Source: Halobacillus hunanensis
GTDB lineage: Bacteria > Bacillota > Bacilli > Bacillales > Halobacillaceae
Assembly: GCF_900166655.1 (NCBI RefSeq)
Contig: NZ_FVZB01000007.1
Location: 1,364,001 to 1,428,000, forward strand
Length of the DNA stretch: 64,000 bases
Reading direction: 5' to 3'
The position numbers and the translations under genes were made by a program. This document shows positions 5,299 through 50,390 of the stretch, in pieces (positions within the stretch are counted from its first letter, which is position 1; each line of letters starts with the position of its first letter). The notes under the pieces are model-generated. The model saw only the letters and a list, made by a program, of their open reading frames with translations. It ran no database searches and was not told the DNA's origin.

Positions 5299-5406
5299 AA
5301 TGATCCCCCTAAAAAAATTCTTCACCACAAATGTATCACTTTTTGAAACAAAAGGGGACCGTTACACGTACATGTGCTAATAATCAATCTCAGGGAGAAG
5401 GTATCT

Positions 5407-5808
5407 ATGATAATTATACTCTTTCGAATCCTATTAATTATAGCCATACTGTTTATTATTTACACAGTCTACAAATTCATGATAAACCCAAGAAGAAAGC
5501 TCGATCATGCTCAACAAAAAAATGAGTTTTACTTTCACGATGCCCCCGAAAATACGAAGCAGAATTTCTTAATCACCTATAAAGGGCTGGTGTTTGAAGG
5601 GGAAAAGTACCTCGGAACTACCGAAGAAGCCTTTGAAGTTGTCACCATTAATATTTTCACTCAACACCCGGAAAAGCTGCAAGGGTTAGAGAGGAATGAT
5701 CTATACTTCCTTGAAGAGCAAGTTTTAATGAGGTATCCCTATGCAAGAATTGAATGGAAATATCCGATAAACCGATTAAATATACGCCCTATTCATGATG
5801 ACCAATAA
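5407..5808 (+). CDS. ysdB: YsdB, sigma-W pathway-associated membrane protein
   Basis: Small protein of 133 residues with one N-terminal transmembrane segment (residues ~2-22) followed by NPRRKLDHAQ and a soluble domain of ~100 residues. The family is annotated as connected to sigma-W activation in B. subtilis. The start ATG at 5407 has AGGGAGAAGG in front; a longer frame from 5374 lacks such a site. It stands alone, divergent from the dUTPase gene, and ends at a bidirectional hairpin. Molecular function is unknown. Confidence 0.85.
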   Translation: MIIILFRILLIIAILFIIYTVYKFMINPRRKLDHAQQKNEFYFHDAPENTKQNFLITYKGLVFEGEKYLGTTEEAFEVVTINIFTQHPEKLQGLERNDLYFLEEQVLMRYPYARIEWKYPINRLNIRPIHDDQ

Positions 5809-15344: not shown

Positions 15345-15722
15345 CTATAGAGCACGAGACTGCTGCACTTCAACAGGCCCCATTCCTCTTGGAACTTCCA
15401 CTGTTTCATTGCGGCCAGCCTCTAACGCTTTGATAATAAATTCTGCTGCAACATTAGGGTCGATACGATCACCACAAGTATACACATCAATACTTGCATA
15501 TCCATGCTCTGGAAAGCTATGGATCGTTAAGTGTGACTCTGAAATAATAACAACCCCGCTGACCCCGTGTGGAGCAAATTTATGAAAGGCAACCTCCCTC
15601 ACTTCCGCTCCTGCTTTAAGTGCTGCATCTACAAAAGTTTGTTCGATATATGACATATCGTTTAATTTATCTTCATTACAATCCCATAATTCGGCAATAA
15701 CATGTCTTCCCATTGTATCCAT
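15345..15722 (-). CDS. speD: S-adenosylmethionine decarboxylase proenzyme
   Basis: Makes decarboxylated SAM, the aminopropyl donor for spermidine. The 125-residue class 1B proenzyme has the self-cleavage site in [13 protein letters not shown]: the Ser preceding His-Leu becomes the pyruvoyl group. [10 protein letters not shown] follows. The ATG at 15722 has GGGGGATCC seven bases upstream. It lies after gapB on the same strand but has its own promoter and a structured leader. Its product could feed the aminopropyltransferase-like protein at 46251-47801 as well as an ordinary SpeE elsewhere. Confidence 0.97.
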
Positions 15723-46250: not shown

Positions 46251-47801
46251 TCAATAGTATTGCCATGCATGCTCATATTTCTGAATGAGGTTAGGATCAA
46301 TTAATGTATTAGGTTCTAATGAGACGATTTCCCCGTCCTTGTTTACAATTTCCCGATCTTCATCCTTTCCAAACACGGTCAGGGATTTTAGTAAGTCACT
46401 TGTTAGAAATTCTGTTTCTTTCGTTATCTCAAGCTGACTTACATCAATAGGTTCACGACTTGCCATCACAAATCCCCAATCCCCGAAACTAGGAATCCCT
46501 ACATGAAAGTTTTCAATATGCAGTCCCGTAGCAGCTACTGTCTCACTAATTGTCCAATAAACTTCTGTGGCAAACACGGGGCTCGTTGCTTGAATCATGG
46601 TTGCTCCACCCGGTTTTAAGTGATTTCTAACTAGTGAATAGAATTCTCTTGTATATAGCTTATTGAGACTTTCGTTGTTTGGATCGGGTAAATCAATAAT
46701 AATCACATTATAAAACTGATCTGCTTGTTCAAGAAACTGAAACGCATCTTTATTATGAACAGAAACTCTCTCATCGAGAAGTGACCCCTCATTTAATTTA
46801 AGTAAATGGTGATTTGTCTTGGCCAGATTTGTAACAGCAGGATCGAGATCCACGAGGGTAATCTCTTCTACATCCGAATACTCTAACAGCTCGCGGGCGG
46901 CTAATCCATCACCTCCTCCAAGAACGAGCACCTCTTTATGGCTTTCCGCTTGTGCCATCGGAAGATGAACGAGCGTTTCGTGATAACGGTGTTCATCAGA
47001 AGAACTAAACTGAAGCGACCCATTTAAATATAGTCGGGTATCACCCTGTTCTTTAGTTAGAACGATCTTTTGGTAGGAACTTTCTTCCATATAAATAATC
47101 GGGTCTTGGTAAAGTTTTTGTTCGAAGGAAAAAGCCATTTCTTCTCCGAAAAATAACCCTCCGACTAATAATACCCCTATCACCACAGCCGCTGTGACAT
47201 GGATAGCCATTTTCTTTATTTCATAGCGAAACAGGTACAGGACAATAACAGCCACTCCAAGATTAATGCAAGCGACGAAGAAAGCACTCTTCACCATCCC
47301 CATTTGCGGCCGCAAATAAAAAGCGAACAACAATCCGCCAATTAAGCCTCCCGCATAATCTGAGAATAGAACTCGTGCCGTACTCCTGCTTAATTCCACA
47401 CCGATTTCATTGGCTTTTCGAATTAAAATCGGCAATTCTACTCCGGTAAGTGCACCGACCGTGAAGGTGATTAAATATAAAAATAAGGCATCCGAACCTG
47501 CAGGAGCAAATGCAGTCATGCCAAACATCATAAAGCTTGAAAACCCACCGATTAAGGCAACCATAAATTCGATCCATACAAATGTGATGATCAATCGTTT
47601 CATCACTTTTTCACTAAGACTGGCCCCAATTCCCATACCAGTTAAAAATAAACTTATTGTCAACGTATACTGTTTTACACCATCTCCAAGTATGTATGAC
47701 CCCAACGCTCCGAACAGCACTTCAAAAATAATGCCACAGATCGAGACAATTCCAGAAGCCCAATAAATTACCCTGCTCTTTCTTACGGCTTCATTATTCA
47801 T
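46251..47801 (-). CDS. membrane-anchored spermidine synthase-like aminopropyltransferase
   Basis: 516 residues in two parts. Residues ~10-225 form about seven membrane helices (SLFLTGMGIGASLSEK, TGVELPILIRKA, AGGLIGGLLFAFYLRPQMG). The C-terminal half is a spermidine-synthase Rossmann domain with VLVLGGGDGLAARELL (SAM/dcSAM loop), LVDLDP, DLPDPNNESLNKLYTREFY (gatekeeper and amine-binding region) and PGGATMIQATSP. A transfer reaction on an amine at the membrane face is inferred; the substrate is unknown. It is the distal gene of the DUF4178-pspA-DUF4247-DUF350 group, though a hairpin precedes it. Confidence 0.88.
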   Translation of the reverse strand: MNNEAVRKSRVIYWASGIVSICGIIFEVLFGALGSYILGDGVKQYTLTISLFLTGMGIGASLSEKVMKRLIITFVWIEFMVALIGGFSSFMMFGMTAFAPAGSDALFLYLITFTVGALTGVELPILIRKANEIGVELSRSTARVLFSDYAGGLIGGLLFAFYLRPQMGMVKSAFFVACINLGVAVIVLYLFRYEIKKMAIHVTAAVVIGVLLVGGLFFGEEMAFSFEQKLYQDPIIYMEESSYQKIVLTKEQGDTRLYLNGSLQFSSSDEHRYHETLVHLPMAQAESHKEVLVLGGGDGLAARELLEYSDVEEITLVDLDPAVTNLAKTNHHLLKLNEGSLLDERVSVHNKDAFQFLEQADQFYNVIIIDLPDPNNESLNKLYTREFYSLVRNHLKPGGATMIQATSPVFATEVYWTISETVAATGLHIENFHVGIPSFGDWGFVMASREPIDVSQLEITKETEFLTSDLLKSLTVFGKDEDREIVNKDGEIVSLEPNTLIDPNLIQKYEHAWQYY

Positions 47802-47831
47802 TGTTTTTCACTCCTACATCAAACAATCACC

Positions 47832-47870
47832 TTTAAAAAGCCACTATGAATCAGTACTCCATAGCGGCTT
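47832..47870 (-). terminator. hairpin terminator between DUF350 and SpeE-like genes
   Basis: AAGCCGCTATG and CATAGTGGCTT arms (47870-47860, 47848-47838) with TTTTTAAAGG after on the minus strand. It probably reduces readthrough into the SpeE-like gene. Confidence 0.7.
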
Positions 47871-47913
47871 AATAAACATTCTTTTTTGGTTAAAAAAGTT
47901 ACGCTTGTGCTGC

Positions 47914-48309
47914 TTATGTAATGGAGGCACCAATTACAAAAGCCAGCCCGATGGATACACCCATAGAAACAATTCCAACAGCTGTATTATTTTCCTTAAG
48001 TTTGGTTTCTACAGAAAACTTCCTCATGAATAGTTCAAATAATAAATAAGTAACCATTTGCAATACGACACCCACAGCTCCCCAAATCAAGGTATCCCAT
48101 AGCGTAAAGCTGTGATAAATGGCAAAAGATAAAATAATACAAATTCCGATAACTTTCCCTGAAATCGACATAGCGACAGCTTGATTTCCGTTACTTATTT
48201 CATCCCAATCCTTATATTGTCTCGTAAGCCACTCAAATAAAAATAATCCAATCACAACAACCACAACGCCTAGAGCAAAATATCCTAATGTAGCTATAAA
48301 TGGTCCCAT
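47914..48309 (-). CDS. DUF350 membrane protein
   Basis: 131 residues with four membrane helices (~7-26, ~50-70, ~73-93, ~110-128) arranged as two similar hairpins, as in the DUF350 (YjfL-like) family. E. coli YjfL is found with a PspA paralogue and an amidase/synthetase in yjfIJKLM-yjfC. It is 12 bases downstream of the DUF4247 gene, suggesting a common transcript. Function unknown. Confidence 0.88.
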   Translation of the reverse strand: MGPFIATLGYFALGVVVVVIGLFLFEWLTRQYKDWDEISNGNQAVAMSISGKVIGICIILSFAIYHSFTLWDTLIWGAVGVVLQMVTYLLFELFMRKFSVETKLKENNTAVGIVSMGVSIGLAFVIGASIT

Positions 48310-48321
48310 TCTTTTCCCTCC

Positions 48322-48993
48322 TTATTTTCCTGCACCAGGTCCGCCCCCGCGGTTTGAAGAGCCGCGAAATGATCCGGGTGTTCCTGAGTTGTATCCTCCG
48401 TACATGCTATAACCACCGTAACAATTACCTGTAGACTTACAGGTTGTTGCACGTTTCCTTGCCCAATCATCAGAATCGAGCATTCGATTCAATAAAGAAT
48501 ATGCTAATAACCCTTGGAAAAAGCTCGGCGAATAATGGTGTCGCACAAATTCATCGCTGGATAATTCAATTATGACAAGACCAGGTTCCGCATCACTTTC
48601 CTGTAAAATCACAAAGTTTTCAGGATAAACAAGTACTTGTTTCCCATTGTTTCGTTTGCTCACTTCTTCAGGTGGAATATTCTTTTGAAGGAGTTCAGCG
48701 ACTTTTTGCATCGTAAGCTCCTGTGTCATATAAATTTCAGAAATTCCTCTATCCGTCTTGACTGTATCAAGTAAAGGAAAACCCTGTCTGATTAATTCTT
48801 CAATGGATGATGAATTAGAGTTATTGATTTTATCAATAATTTCACTACGGGATGGTTCGTCAGGCAGCTCTTCGTATGTATCTTCTGTAAAAGAGCCGGA
48901 AATCCCTCTAGAACCACCATTATTTCCAAACATGTTCATACCTAATACCACTGCAATGATCACTACAATTATGACCCCGCCAAAACTTCTCAC
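48322..48993 (-). CDS. DUF4247 secreted or membrane-anchored protein
   Basis: 223 residues from a GTG at 48993 (GGAGGGG six bases upstream); the TTG two codons earlier is too close to that site. An N-terminal hydrophobic segment (~5-20, GGVIIVVIIAVVLGMN) acts as signal anchor, followed by a Ser/Asn-rich linker and a domain with YMTQELTMQKVAELL and VIIELSSDEFVRHHY. A pair of Cys (TTCKSTGNCYGG) and a Gly/Ser/Tyr-rich tail end the protein. DUF4247 proteins occur beside PspA and DUF350; role unknown. Confidence 0.85.
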   Translation of the reverse strand: MRSFGGVIIVVIIAVVLGMNMFGNNGGSRGISGSFTEDTYEELPDEPSRSEIIDKINNSNSSSIEELIRQGFPLLDTVKTDRGISEIYMTQELTMQKVAELLQKNIPPEEVSKRNNGKQVLVYPENFVILQESDAEPGLVIIELSSDEFVRHHYSPSFFQGLLAYSLLNRMLDSDDWARKRATTCKSTGNCYGGYSMYGGYNSGTPGSFRGSSNRGGGPGAGK

Positions 48994-49013
48994 GTGCAAC
49001 CCCTCCCTTCATC

Positions 49014-49049
49014 AAAAAAATACACGTGCCCGACGTAAAGTCAGGCACG
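49014..49049 (-). terminator. internal terminator between pspA and DUF4247 gene
   Basis: CGTGCCTGAC and GTCGGGCACG arms (49049-49040, 49034-49025; one G-U pair), then TGTATTTTTTT on the minus strand. It lies within an otherwise collinear gene group. Confidence 0.78.
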
Positions 49050-49066
49050 ATTCAACTTCCTGCCAT

Positions 49067-49738
49067 TTACTCTTTATTCATTTTCTTTTTAAGGGCAGCT
49101 AATTCATCGTCTACACTATTCTTATCATCTAAAGCATCAAATTCATCATCGAGGGAACGATTAGATTTGGAAAGATCCTCACTGGTCTCAGCTTCTGCTT
49201 CATACTGCATGACTTTCTCTTCCATTCTCTCAAACCCTTGACGTGACTCATCGCCGCCAATGCCTGACATGGTCCGATTCATCTTTGTACGTGTTTTGGC
49301 TGATTCCGCTCTTGCTTTAAGCGAATCCTTTTTCAACTTCATTTCCTGATATTCTTTCTTCATTTCATCAAGTTTTTTACGAAGATTATTAGAATCCTGC
49401 TCAGCACGTTCATGGGAAGCTTTAAATTGGTCAGCCTGTTCCTGATGATTATTTTTATCTTCAAGTGCTCGGCGGGCTAGATCTTCGTTACCTGCTTCAA
49501 TAGCTTTCTCAGCTTGCTTCATACGTTTATCACTTAATGCCTGTGAGTCATCATACTTACGTTTTAACATTTTTTCATTAGCGATTTGCTTTGCCACTGC
49601 ACTTTCAGCCTCACGGATATCACTTTCCATATCTCTCATGAACTGTTCCAGCATTTTGACTGGATCTTCAGCTTTATCTAACATAGAATTTAGCTCAGCA
49701 CCAACAACTGTTTTGACACGACTAAAAAGTTTAAACAT
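49067..49738 (-). CDS. pspA: PspA/IM30 family membrane-stress protein
   Basis: 223-residue ESCRT-III-like protein, almost wholly coiled coil. The N-terminal amphipathic helix MFKLFSRVKTVVGAELNSML binds membranes and is followed by the family motif EDPVKMLEQFMRDMESDI (~27-44). PspA polymers protect the cytoplasmic membrane from proton leakage. It is the second gene of a group with DUF4178, DUF4247, DUF350 and a membrane SpeE-like enzyme, a combination that differs from the liaIH (lia) locus of B. subtilis. Confidence 0.93.
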   Translation of the reverse strand: MFKLFSRVKTVVGAELNSMLDKAEDPVKMLEQFMRDMESDIREAESAVAKQIANEKMLKRKYDDSQALSDKRMKQAEKAIEAGNEDLARRALEDKNNHQEQADQFKASHERAEQDSNNLRKKLDEMKKEYQEMKLKKDSLKARAESAKTRTKMNRTMSGIGGDESRQGFERMEEKVMQYEAEAETSEDLSKSNRSLDDEFDALDDKNSVDDELAALKKKMNKE

Positions 49739-49753
49739 TTCATTTCCTCCTTA

Positions 49754-50263
49754 TTATTTAGAACCAGCTATGATTTTTATTTCATAGGCTTCGATATCAT
49801 ATCCATAGCTAACTTCAACTTCACTGCCCCACGATTCTAAAGACAGGTATGTTTCCTCATCCTCAGAAATGTACTCAGCATAACGAGTAGTCCGGCCATT
49901 TATATTCTTACTCCGGCCTTCCCCCGTCACATAGGCTTCACCTTCCTCATCTTTATGGTAAATGGTGCCTTCATATTCAATTTGCTTCGGAAAGGAATCC
50001 TGAGGAAGCTTAATTGTCTCATATATACCAAGTTCCAGTTCATCATCCATCTCAGCAGAAAGCCACTTTATGTTAGTACCTTCCAGCAGCTGATAGGAAT
50101 ACCATTCATAAGACCCATCACGGTAGGTAATTTTGCCAACCACTTCATAATCCACAAGGTCAAACGTAATGATATCTCCTACCTGAATAGTAAGAACAGT
50201 TCTTTCCTTCACTTCAGGAGTTTCTGTTTTTTTATTGGAAAACAATCTTGAAAATAACCCCAA
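49754..50263 (-). CDS. DUF4178 protein
   Basis: 169 residues; the TTG at 50263 (MGLFSRLFSNKKTETPE) has AGAGAGGTGAGCAC upstream. The N-terminus is a short amphipathic helix similar to that of PspA. The remainder is beta-rich with YEVVGKITYRDGSYEWYSYQL and WLSAEMDDELELGIYETI, the DUF4178 pattern. First gene of the module; pspA follows after 15 bases. Acidic overall. No enzyme residues are apparent; a partner or scaffold role for PspA is only inference. Confidence 0.85.
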   Translation of the reverse strand: MGLFSRLFSNKKTETPEVKERTVLTIQVGDIITFDLVDYEVVGKITYRDGSYEWYSYQLLEGTNIKWLSAEMDDELELGIYETIKLPQDSFPKQIEYEGTIYHKDEEGEAYVTGEGRSKNINGRTTRYAEYISEDEETYLSLESWGSEVEVSYGYDIEAYEIKIIAGSK

Positions 50264-50347
50264 GTGCTCACCTCTCTTCAACTAAGACCTCGTACCTGTA
50301 TGTACGGGATGAACCCGTACTTGGTTTCATTTTATTATAACTTTTTA

Positions 50348-50383
50348 TAAAAAAACAGTAGAACGAAGGGAAGTCCTACTGTT
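50348..50383 (-). terminator. terminator of ald
   Basis: AACAGTAG and CTACTGTT arms (50354-50361, 50376-50383) followed by TTTTTTTATAAAAAG on the minus strand. Confidence 0.85.
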
Positions 50384-50390
50384 TGTCAAG

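Follow-up and report, generated by a model that had tools for sequence, protein, structure and literature searches.

The window analysed here, a 64,000-nucleotide stretch of the Halobacillus hunanensis genome, carries five collinear genes on the minus strand between positions 50263 and 46251, which encode, in this order, a DUF4178 protein, PspA, a DUF4247 protein, a DUF350 protein and mSpeE, a protein with seven transmembrane (TM) helices and a C-terminal spermidine-synthase domain. All five proteins score over the gathering cut-offs in a Pfam profile search, and the computed gene order is retained at 18 of 20 same-family loci and at 7 of 10 other Bacillota loci that have mSpeE. Given this conservation, the arrangement is not due to chance, and the single five-gene module proposed in the initial annotation is borne out. 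A single five-gene transcript is uncertain, because mSpeE is located elsewhere in two same-family genomes and the DUF350-mSpeE gap spans 112 bases and contains a hairpin-like stretch of its own. The module itself is already known, though poorly understood; its promoter, hairpin and topology are the new parts. The initial annotation included neither the promoter (50329-50303) nor the hairpin (49049-49025) nor the SpeD gene (15722-15345).

The first gene (49754-50263, minus strand; PF13785, 3e-34) encodes a DUF4178 protein of 169 amino acids with the N-terminus MGLFSRLFSNKK; its TTG start at 50263, obtained by refining starts from the sequence, agrees with the end coordinate given previously. 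It is followed by the gene for a PspA/IM30 protein of 223 amino acids (49067-49738, minus strand; PF04012, PspA_IM30, 4e-51), which falls under the NCBIfam equivalog cut-offs for both PspA and LiaH. DUF4178-PspA is the most stable pairing in the module: the two genes are neighbours at 38 of 39 Bacillota loci. The amphipathic N-terminus of DUF4178 is retained across Bacilli and Clostridia, and some relatives have a TM segment instead, which is the pattern that membrane docking of this region would predict; together with the stable pairing, this supports the earlier proposal of joint docking of the two proteins via amphipathic N-termini. The DUF4247 gene (48322-48993, minus strand; PF14042, 1.3e-10) most likely starts with the GTG at 48993, which is preceded by a strong ribosome-binding site. 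By hydropathy, its product has a short basic N-terminus, one TM anchor and a predicted outer domain that ends with a Cys pair and a Gly-rich tail. The DUF350 protein (47914-48309, minus strand; PF03994, 2.9e-39; 131 amino acids) has four TM helices, assigned from four hydrophobic segments.

About 40 bases 5' of the DUF4178 start codon lies an exact match to a sigma-W (ECF) type promoter, TGAAAC-N17-CGTA (50303-50329, minus strand). The promoter is found at the same place, with divergent spacers, in 30 of 30 same-family loci (the window counted), in 5 of 5 other Bacilli loci and in 5 of 5 rearranged operons that begin with pspA; it precedes none of 209 control ORFs and occurs at none of 94 non-Bacilli loci. 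Genome-wide, the motif has 55 matches, compared to 16 for the reversed pattern, and the same motif is present just 5' of this genome's own sigW (G000:C2:76346-76372, with sigW at 76411). Both features of a sigma-W regulon, a TGAAAC-N16/17-CGTA promoter and a SigW gene in the genome, are present, and the pspA operon of B. subtilis is sigma-W regulated (PMC3498285). The conserved promoter ahead of the module is new here; it suggests sigma-W activity at this site in the cell and much strengthens the previously proposed link to envelope stress.

Between pspA and the DUF4247 gene, we found a 10-pair hairpin with a T-rich tail (49025-49049, minus strand) that is 100% paired across 16 aligned loci, with changes on both sides at 6 pairs. 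Its covariation score is 0.393, versus 0.007-0.068 when the hairpin is slid. This covarying element between pspA and the membrane genes, likewise a new observation, is probably an attenuator. A terminator-like hairpin belonging to the upstream alanine dehydrogenase gene (50353-50384, minus strand; 12-pair stem with a T-run, from one consensus scan only) appears to separate that gene from the operon.

Residues 231-516 of mSpeE (46251-47111, minus strand; PF01564, Spermine_synth, 4.8e-39) form a domain of the spermidine-synthase fold that matches the Thermus aminopropyltransferase 1uir/3anx (Z 35; to 1uir_A, Z 35.3 over 279 residues, rmsd 2.9). The donor-binding and catalytic features (GGGDG, DxD, catalytic Asp) are kept as D298, D320, D352, D370 and D373. 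The donor residues Q244, D298, D320, D352, D370 and D373 are invariant in 55 of 55 mSpeE proteins from many phyla, and D298, D320 and D352 in 25 of 25 actinobacterial ones. Aligned with canonical SpeE, of which only 6 were alignable, mSpeE shows the acceptor motifs DLPDPNN and PSFGxWGF (PSFGDWG in the window) as opposed to the canonical DS(T/S)DP and PTYPSG-type motifs, and the putrescine-site motifs of spermidine synthase proper are absent. The combination of an unvarying donor site for aminopropyl groups, changed acceptor motifs and, often, SpeD in the operon is new here; the conserved donor site and the SpeD linkage fit the initial idea of polyamine-type chemistry directed at a non-polyamine acceptor.

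Were mSpeE instead an ordinary polyamine synthase, it would protect the stressed membrane by making spermidine or some other free polyamine. Such a role agrees with the NCBIfam label, polyamine aminopropyltransferase (NF002956, 595.6 bits, cut-off 472), with the closest folds, which are triamine/agmatine and thermospermine synthases, and with the protection of P. aeruginosa by surface polyamines (Johnson 2012, as cited in PMC11107197). We nevertheless consider it improbable because the genome also carries a canonical SpeE, the acceptor motifs of mSpeE differ, and membrane-fused SpeE proteins, found in a dozen phyla and annotated as spermidine synthases, failed in complementation and, according to published work, make no spermidine and have no part in spermidine or spermine synthesis (PMC12803844, citing Li 2019). 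A PSP-type membrane repair set, in which the SpeE domain only senses dcSAM or MTA and transfers nothing, would account for PspA in the operon but is highly unlikely, considering that neither the catalytic nor the donor residues vary between phyla and that mSpeE is accompanied by SpeD and an amine oxidase where it occurs without PspA.

The membrane part of mSpeE, residues 1-230 (47112-47801, minus strand), comprises seven TM helices (AlphaFold2 model, pLDDT 92.9), with E27, E78, E122, D148 and N180 as invariant intramembrane residues in 55 + 25 homologues. The charge bias in all 80 of these homologues puts the SpeE domain outside the cytoplasm, and the Lys and Arg residues before versus after TM7 favour the same side in 70 of the 80, with 7 ties. 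Depletion of Cys as a sign of an outer domain was considered and rejected, given that mSpeE domains are not Cys-poorer than canonical SpeE. The preferred location of the domain is accordingly outside, and the outward-facing catalytic half combined with invariant acidic residues in the membrane is a new prediction, which can be checked with simple reporter fusions. Tentatively, at somewhat under even odds, we suggest that mSpeE is an export-coupled extracytoplasmic aminopropyltransferase, in which the 7TM part, with its acidic residues, would carry dcSAM across the membrane to the outward SpeE domain; a surface lipid, wall polymer or protein would be aminopropylated, and a Tat-exported amine oxidase would then act on the product in many lineages. 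We know of no bacterial outward-facing enzyme with an AdoMet-type donor. In all well-known enzymes, SAM-type donors are cytosolic, which favours an MprF-like arrangement whereby the SpeE domain sits in the cytosol and adds aminopropyl groups to a membrane protein or a lipid of the inner leaflet, and the product is then flipped to the outside by the 7TM part; the conserved polar TM residues could bind the head group. This alternative appears doubtful to us, as both charge signals point the opposite way and the oxidase partner is Tat-exported in 23 of 25 cases.

The window also encodes an AdoMet decarboxylase, SpeD (15345-15722, minus strand; TIGR03330, 5.5e-42, over the cut-off; PF02675, 1.8e-40), which, located about 30 kb from the module, likely supplies the donor in trans. 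Elsewhere, SpeD lies inside the operon at 34 of 63 testable mSpeE loci. Its absence from an operon was rejected as an argument against dcSAM, since in the broad sample most genomes without operon SpeD have it elsewhere. PspA is near mSpeE in only 8 of 63 broadly sampled loci, so that the PspA link is lineage-bound and the combination of PspA with amine-ligating chemistry, initially put forward as a general theme, is not supported. The wider core consists of mSpeE, DUF350, DUF4178-type proteins and SpeD. DUF4178-type and DUF4247-type proteins are present at 54 of the 63 loci, counted together because outside Bacillota the iterated profiles began matching each other's families; Pfam confirms DUF4178 in 5 of 6 such proteins checked, from four loci.

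Membrane-fused SpeE with AdoMet decarboxylase linkage and DUF350 was reportedly described by Li et al. in 2019. The window shares this mSpeE type, the SpeD linkage and DUF350 but differs in the distant SpeD gene and in the addition of PspA and a sigma-W promoter. The likeness to E. coli yjfIJKLM-yjfC noted initially holds for the PspA family protein YjfJ and the DUF350 protein YjfL, which share an operon with a polyamine-type enzyme. It does not extend to that enzyme, YjfC, an ATP-grasp protein annotated as a peptide-spermidine ligase and, to our knowledge, not a SpeE homologue, and the E. coli operon has DUF2170, DUF2491 and DUF1190 where the window has DUF4178 and DUF4247. Operons of PspA, DUF4178, DUF350 and 7TM-SpeE were described by Ravi et al. 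2024 (PMC11237479), whose group 2 operon (e.g. AAN56744.1-AAN56747.1) unites the four in one collinear cluster, as in the window, together with a CesT/Tir chaperone, the Ctha_1186 lipoprotein and sometimes an RHH regulator. No CesT/Tir-type chaperone gene was found between 50391 and 46251, and DUF4247 takes the place of the lipoprotein; the window operon is therefore a variant of group 2 rather than an exact member. The portions of that account available to us do not mention promoter, topology or hairpin. With both halves of the idea already in print (PMC11237479; Li 2019 via PMC12803844), the initial statement that no pathway is established was too pessimistic. The B. subtilis pspA-ydjGHI operon, also under sigma-W (PMC3498285), lacks an aminopropyltransferase; PspA is accompanied there by proteins of the zinc-ribbon, TPM and band-7 types.

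Promoter conservation, hairpin covariation, the SpeE fold, the intact donor site, the altered acceptor motifs and the SpeD linkage were all computed directly. Our main reading, to which we assign a probability of roughly 0.58, is a sigma-W-controlled, dcSAM-dependent aminopropylation system for a putative envelope acceptor, coupled to membrane maintenance by PspA. Under this model, envelope damage would free sigma-W, which would drive strong transcription of DUF4178 and pspA and, via the hairpin, weaker transcription of DUF4247, DUF350 and mSpeE. PspA and DUF4178 would dock through their N-terminal amphipathic helices on the inner membrane face and stabilise the membrane. SpeD would make decarboxylated AdoMet, from which mSpeE would move the aminopropyl group onto a non-putrescine envelope acceptor, adding positive charge or bulk; DUF350 may be a membrane partner and DUF4247 an outer-surface partner of mSpeE. 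An outward-facing catalytic domain, if real, would mean that bacteria modify their cell surface with an AdoMet-derived donor in a way not recognised before; defence against membrane-active peptides and antibiotics would be a plausible use, with a link to membrane repair by PspA. The sigma-W promoter offers a clean on-switch for the system in a tractable Bacillus.

Counting against our main reading, neither SpeD nor DUF2617, a family that occurs beside mSpeE in relatives but not in the window, was found in four draft Campylobacterota genomes with mSpeE. A plasmid search for DUF2617 found nothing, and a PDB profile search gave unrelated matches only. The top fold matches of a poor AlphaFold2 model (two sequences, pLDDT 59.5) were at chance level, with AdoMet decarboxylase not among them. 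DUF2617 carries SpeD look-alike motifs, G-x-S-H...E-x-x-A/S-C and T...H-x-Y-P, but was rejected as a recognisable SpeD homologue, the profile comparison being weak and limited to the C-terminal half (hhalign E 0.002-0.014 for the C-terminal motif, the N-terminal half without support). In actinobacteria and some clostridia, mostly without SpeD, DUF2617 adjoins mSpeE, an adjacency that is new here and that we retain as a genomic association only.

The operon of the window (50263-46251, minus strand) comprises the genes for DUF4178, PspA, DUF4247, DUF350 and mSpeE, all scoring above the Pfam cut-offs, and we interpret it, with a probability of roughly 0.6, as a system for stress-controlled aminopropylation of an envelope acceptor dependent on decarboxylated AdoMet (dcSAM). 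The 516-residue mSpeE, in which seven transmembrane (TM) helices precede a spermidine-synthase domain at the C-terminus, carries the NCBIfam name polyamine aminopropyltransferase. Next upstream is the alanine dehydrogenase gene, the end of which is followed by a terminator-like hairpin (50384-50353). According to PMC11237479, the gene set and the idea that other substrates are aminopropylated are already published; we filed the operon, which lacks CesT/Tir, as a variant of the PspA/DUF350/DUF4178/7TM-SpeE operons described there (Ravi group 2). The sigma-W promoter, the hairpin, the outward topology, the intramembrane acidic residues and the DUF2617/SpeD exchange were not found in the literature as far as it was accessible.

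DUF4178 is present in 44 of 44 Halobacillaceae genomes compared to 20 of 348 across the Bacillota sample. Gene order was compared, using profile labels, in 20 loci of the same family and 19 of the phylum sample, the DUF4247 and DUF4178 labels in distant loci being verified against Pfam. The identical order in 18/20 same-family loci and in 7/10 phylum loci having mSpeE bears out the proposal of the initial annotation that the five genes form one unit. Two further loci contain all five genes differently arranged, and in both same-family exceptions an mSpeE-sized gene lies elsewhere in the genome. PspA adjoins DUF4178 in all but one of the 39 loci. A second family contributes five loci that carry PspA-DUF350-DUF4178 and lack mSpeE, DUF4247 being present in three of these. 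A metallo-beta-lactamase-fold hydrolase gene (46220-45540, minus strand) begins 31 bases after mSpeE and keeps its place next to the operon in relatives' loci from which mSpeE has relocated (L075 and L079), and is thus a neighbour rather than a member. In locus L082 (G027:C2:1751600-1763000), the whole operon is tandemly duplicated; the copies are nearly identical, with mSpeE truncated to 222 aa in the first, reflecting either recent duplication or an assembly artefact. In two other loci (L109:3020-3479, L110:12965-13384), DUF350 occurs as two successive genes of 64-67 aa, each corresponding to one half of a four-helix family member, and a potassium-channel (Ion_trans_2/TrkA_N) gene adjoins them.

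An exact match to the sigma-W consensus, TGAAAC-N17-CGTA, precedes DUF4178 (50329-50303, minus strand). The match recurs at the same site in 29 of 29 tests of other loci, with divergent spacers, and in all five further Bacilli loci tested, whereas in the second family, whose five operons begin with pspA, the match sits before that gene instead. Neither the 209 other ORFs in the same loci nor the 94 DUF4178-labelled genes from outside Bacilli are preceded by it. The genome encodes SigW (TIGR02948, 321.7 bits), with the same motif 39 bases upstream of sigW, as expected under autoregulation; Bacilli genomes yielded SigW matches above the family cut-off, the clostridial genomes tested none. The conserved promoter ties the operon to envelope stress. 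The sigma-W regulon was defined in PMC3498285; in B. subtilis, sigma-W is induced by cell-wall antibiotics, cationic peptides, alkali and salt. The only other exact match within the window (5344-5370, plus strand) is located 4 bases upstream of the GTG (37 upstream of an ATG) of an ORF of 144 aa (5374-5808). The ORF resembles YsdB, whose gene belongs to the sigma-W core in B. subtilis (PMC3498285), but this identity was confirmed by neither Pfam nor NCBIfam.

The interval from pspA to DUF4247 contains a hairpin, CGTGCCTGAC-loop-GTCGGGCACG, followed by a T-rich tail; this hairpin occurs once within the window. In 16 aligned loci, 160 of 160 pair cells are standard pairs and six of the ten pairs vary on both sides; pairing is lost when the partner is slid. 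We read this hairpin as an attenuator that would keep the membrane genes expressed at a lower level than DUF4178 and pspA. The 112 bases separating DUF350 from mSpeE (47913-47802, minus strand) include GCCGCTATG...CATAGTGGC followed by TTTTT, noted by eye as a possible second attenuator.

Joint membrane docking of DUF4178 and PspA had also been suggested. The membrane association of DUF4178 is supported by its amphipathic FFSRLF-type N-terminal helix in Bacilli (similar in most clostridial copies), by a TM segment or zinc ribbon replacing that helix in relatives, and by a two-TM module following the domain in long forms; docking with PspA is plausible, given the pairing of the genes. In DUF4247, a short basic N-terminus is combined with a single TM segment, so that its domain probably lies outside.

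AlphaFold2 gave a good model of mSpeE (pLDDT 92.9, 55 sequences), the C-terminal domain of which matches the Thermus triamine/agmatine aminopropyltransferase (Z 35) and thermospermine synthase (Z 34), both at ~30% identity. All 55 mSpeE proteins from many phyla share, without exception, the donor-side residues Q244, D298, D320 and D352 and the catalytic D370/D373 pair, which are retained in all but one or two of 25 actinobacterial copies. The acceptor-side motifs are likewise invariant, yet unlike those of canonical SpeE, consistent with the statement in PMC12803844 (citing Li 2019) that membrane-fused SpeE proteins make no spermidine.

Among 55 homologues, mean K+R is 2.05 at the N-terminus and 2.49, 2.95 and 3.33 in loops 2-3, 4-5 and 6-7, against 0.25, 0.27 and 0.38 in loops 1-2, 3-4 and 5-6; the actinobacterial pattern agrees, and N-inside is favoured in 80 of 80 single sequences. 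With seven helices, this orientation puts the SpeE domain on the outside. TM7, which has basic residues before it and acidic ones after, is strongly hydrophobic. One weak point is helix 137-190, which the model shows unbroken even though two crossings would be expected from its length and two conserved prolines. Another is that we know of no outward-facing AdoMet-type enzyme. Tat RRxF-type signals in 23 of 25 partner amine oxidases suggest that the product is handled outside, which also favours an outward domain. An outward-facing version of the system is a tentative reading, at somewhat below even odds. The intramembrane residues E27, E78, E122, D148 and N180 are kept in 25/25 actinobacterial proteins and, where scored, in 89-100% of the 55 homologues.

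A scan of 85,000 genomes yielded 80 named mSpeE loci, in Bacillota, Bacteroidota, Pseudomonadota, Acidobacteriota, Chloroflexi and others. The 63 clusters with enough flank include DUF350 (48), SpeD, the AdoMet decarboxylase (34), flavin amine oxidase (20) and PspA (8). Of 50 genomes in whose operon no SpeD was obvious, 38 encode one elsewhere, and the window's genome has both SpeD and a separate canonical SpeE. Four non-actinobacterial operons include DUF2617, and SpeD is absent from all four genomes. In actinobacteria, DUF2617 exceeds the cut-off in 24 of 396 genomes, adjoining mSpeE in each of these loci (L312 and L319 judged by position), and only two of the 24 have SpeD, compared to 37 of 396 overall. 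Among 14 control genomes, DUF2617 occurred in exactly two of the three having a Spermine_synth match without SpeD. DUF2617 might supply the donor, although attempts to demonstrate its homology to SpeD were unsuccessful. In three Campylobacterota loci (L225, L239, L257), from genomes that yielded neither SpeD nor DUF2617, the gene directly after mSpeE resembles, by eye, a PLP-dependent carboxynorspermidine decarboxylase. Downstream of mSpeE in 13 loci (L219, L223, L224, L228, L251 and others), the gene for the Tat-exported amine oxidase is succeeded by one for a ~355-aa multi-TM protein that matches no Pfam family.
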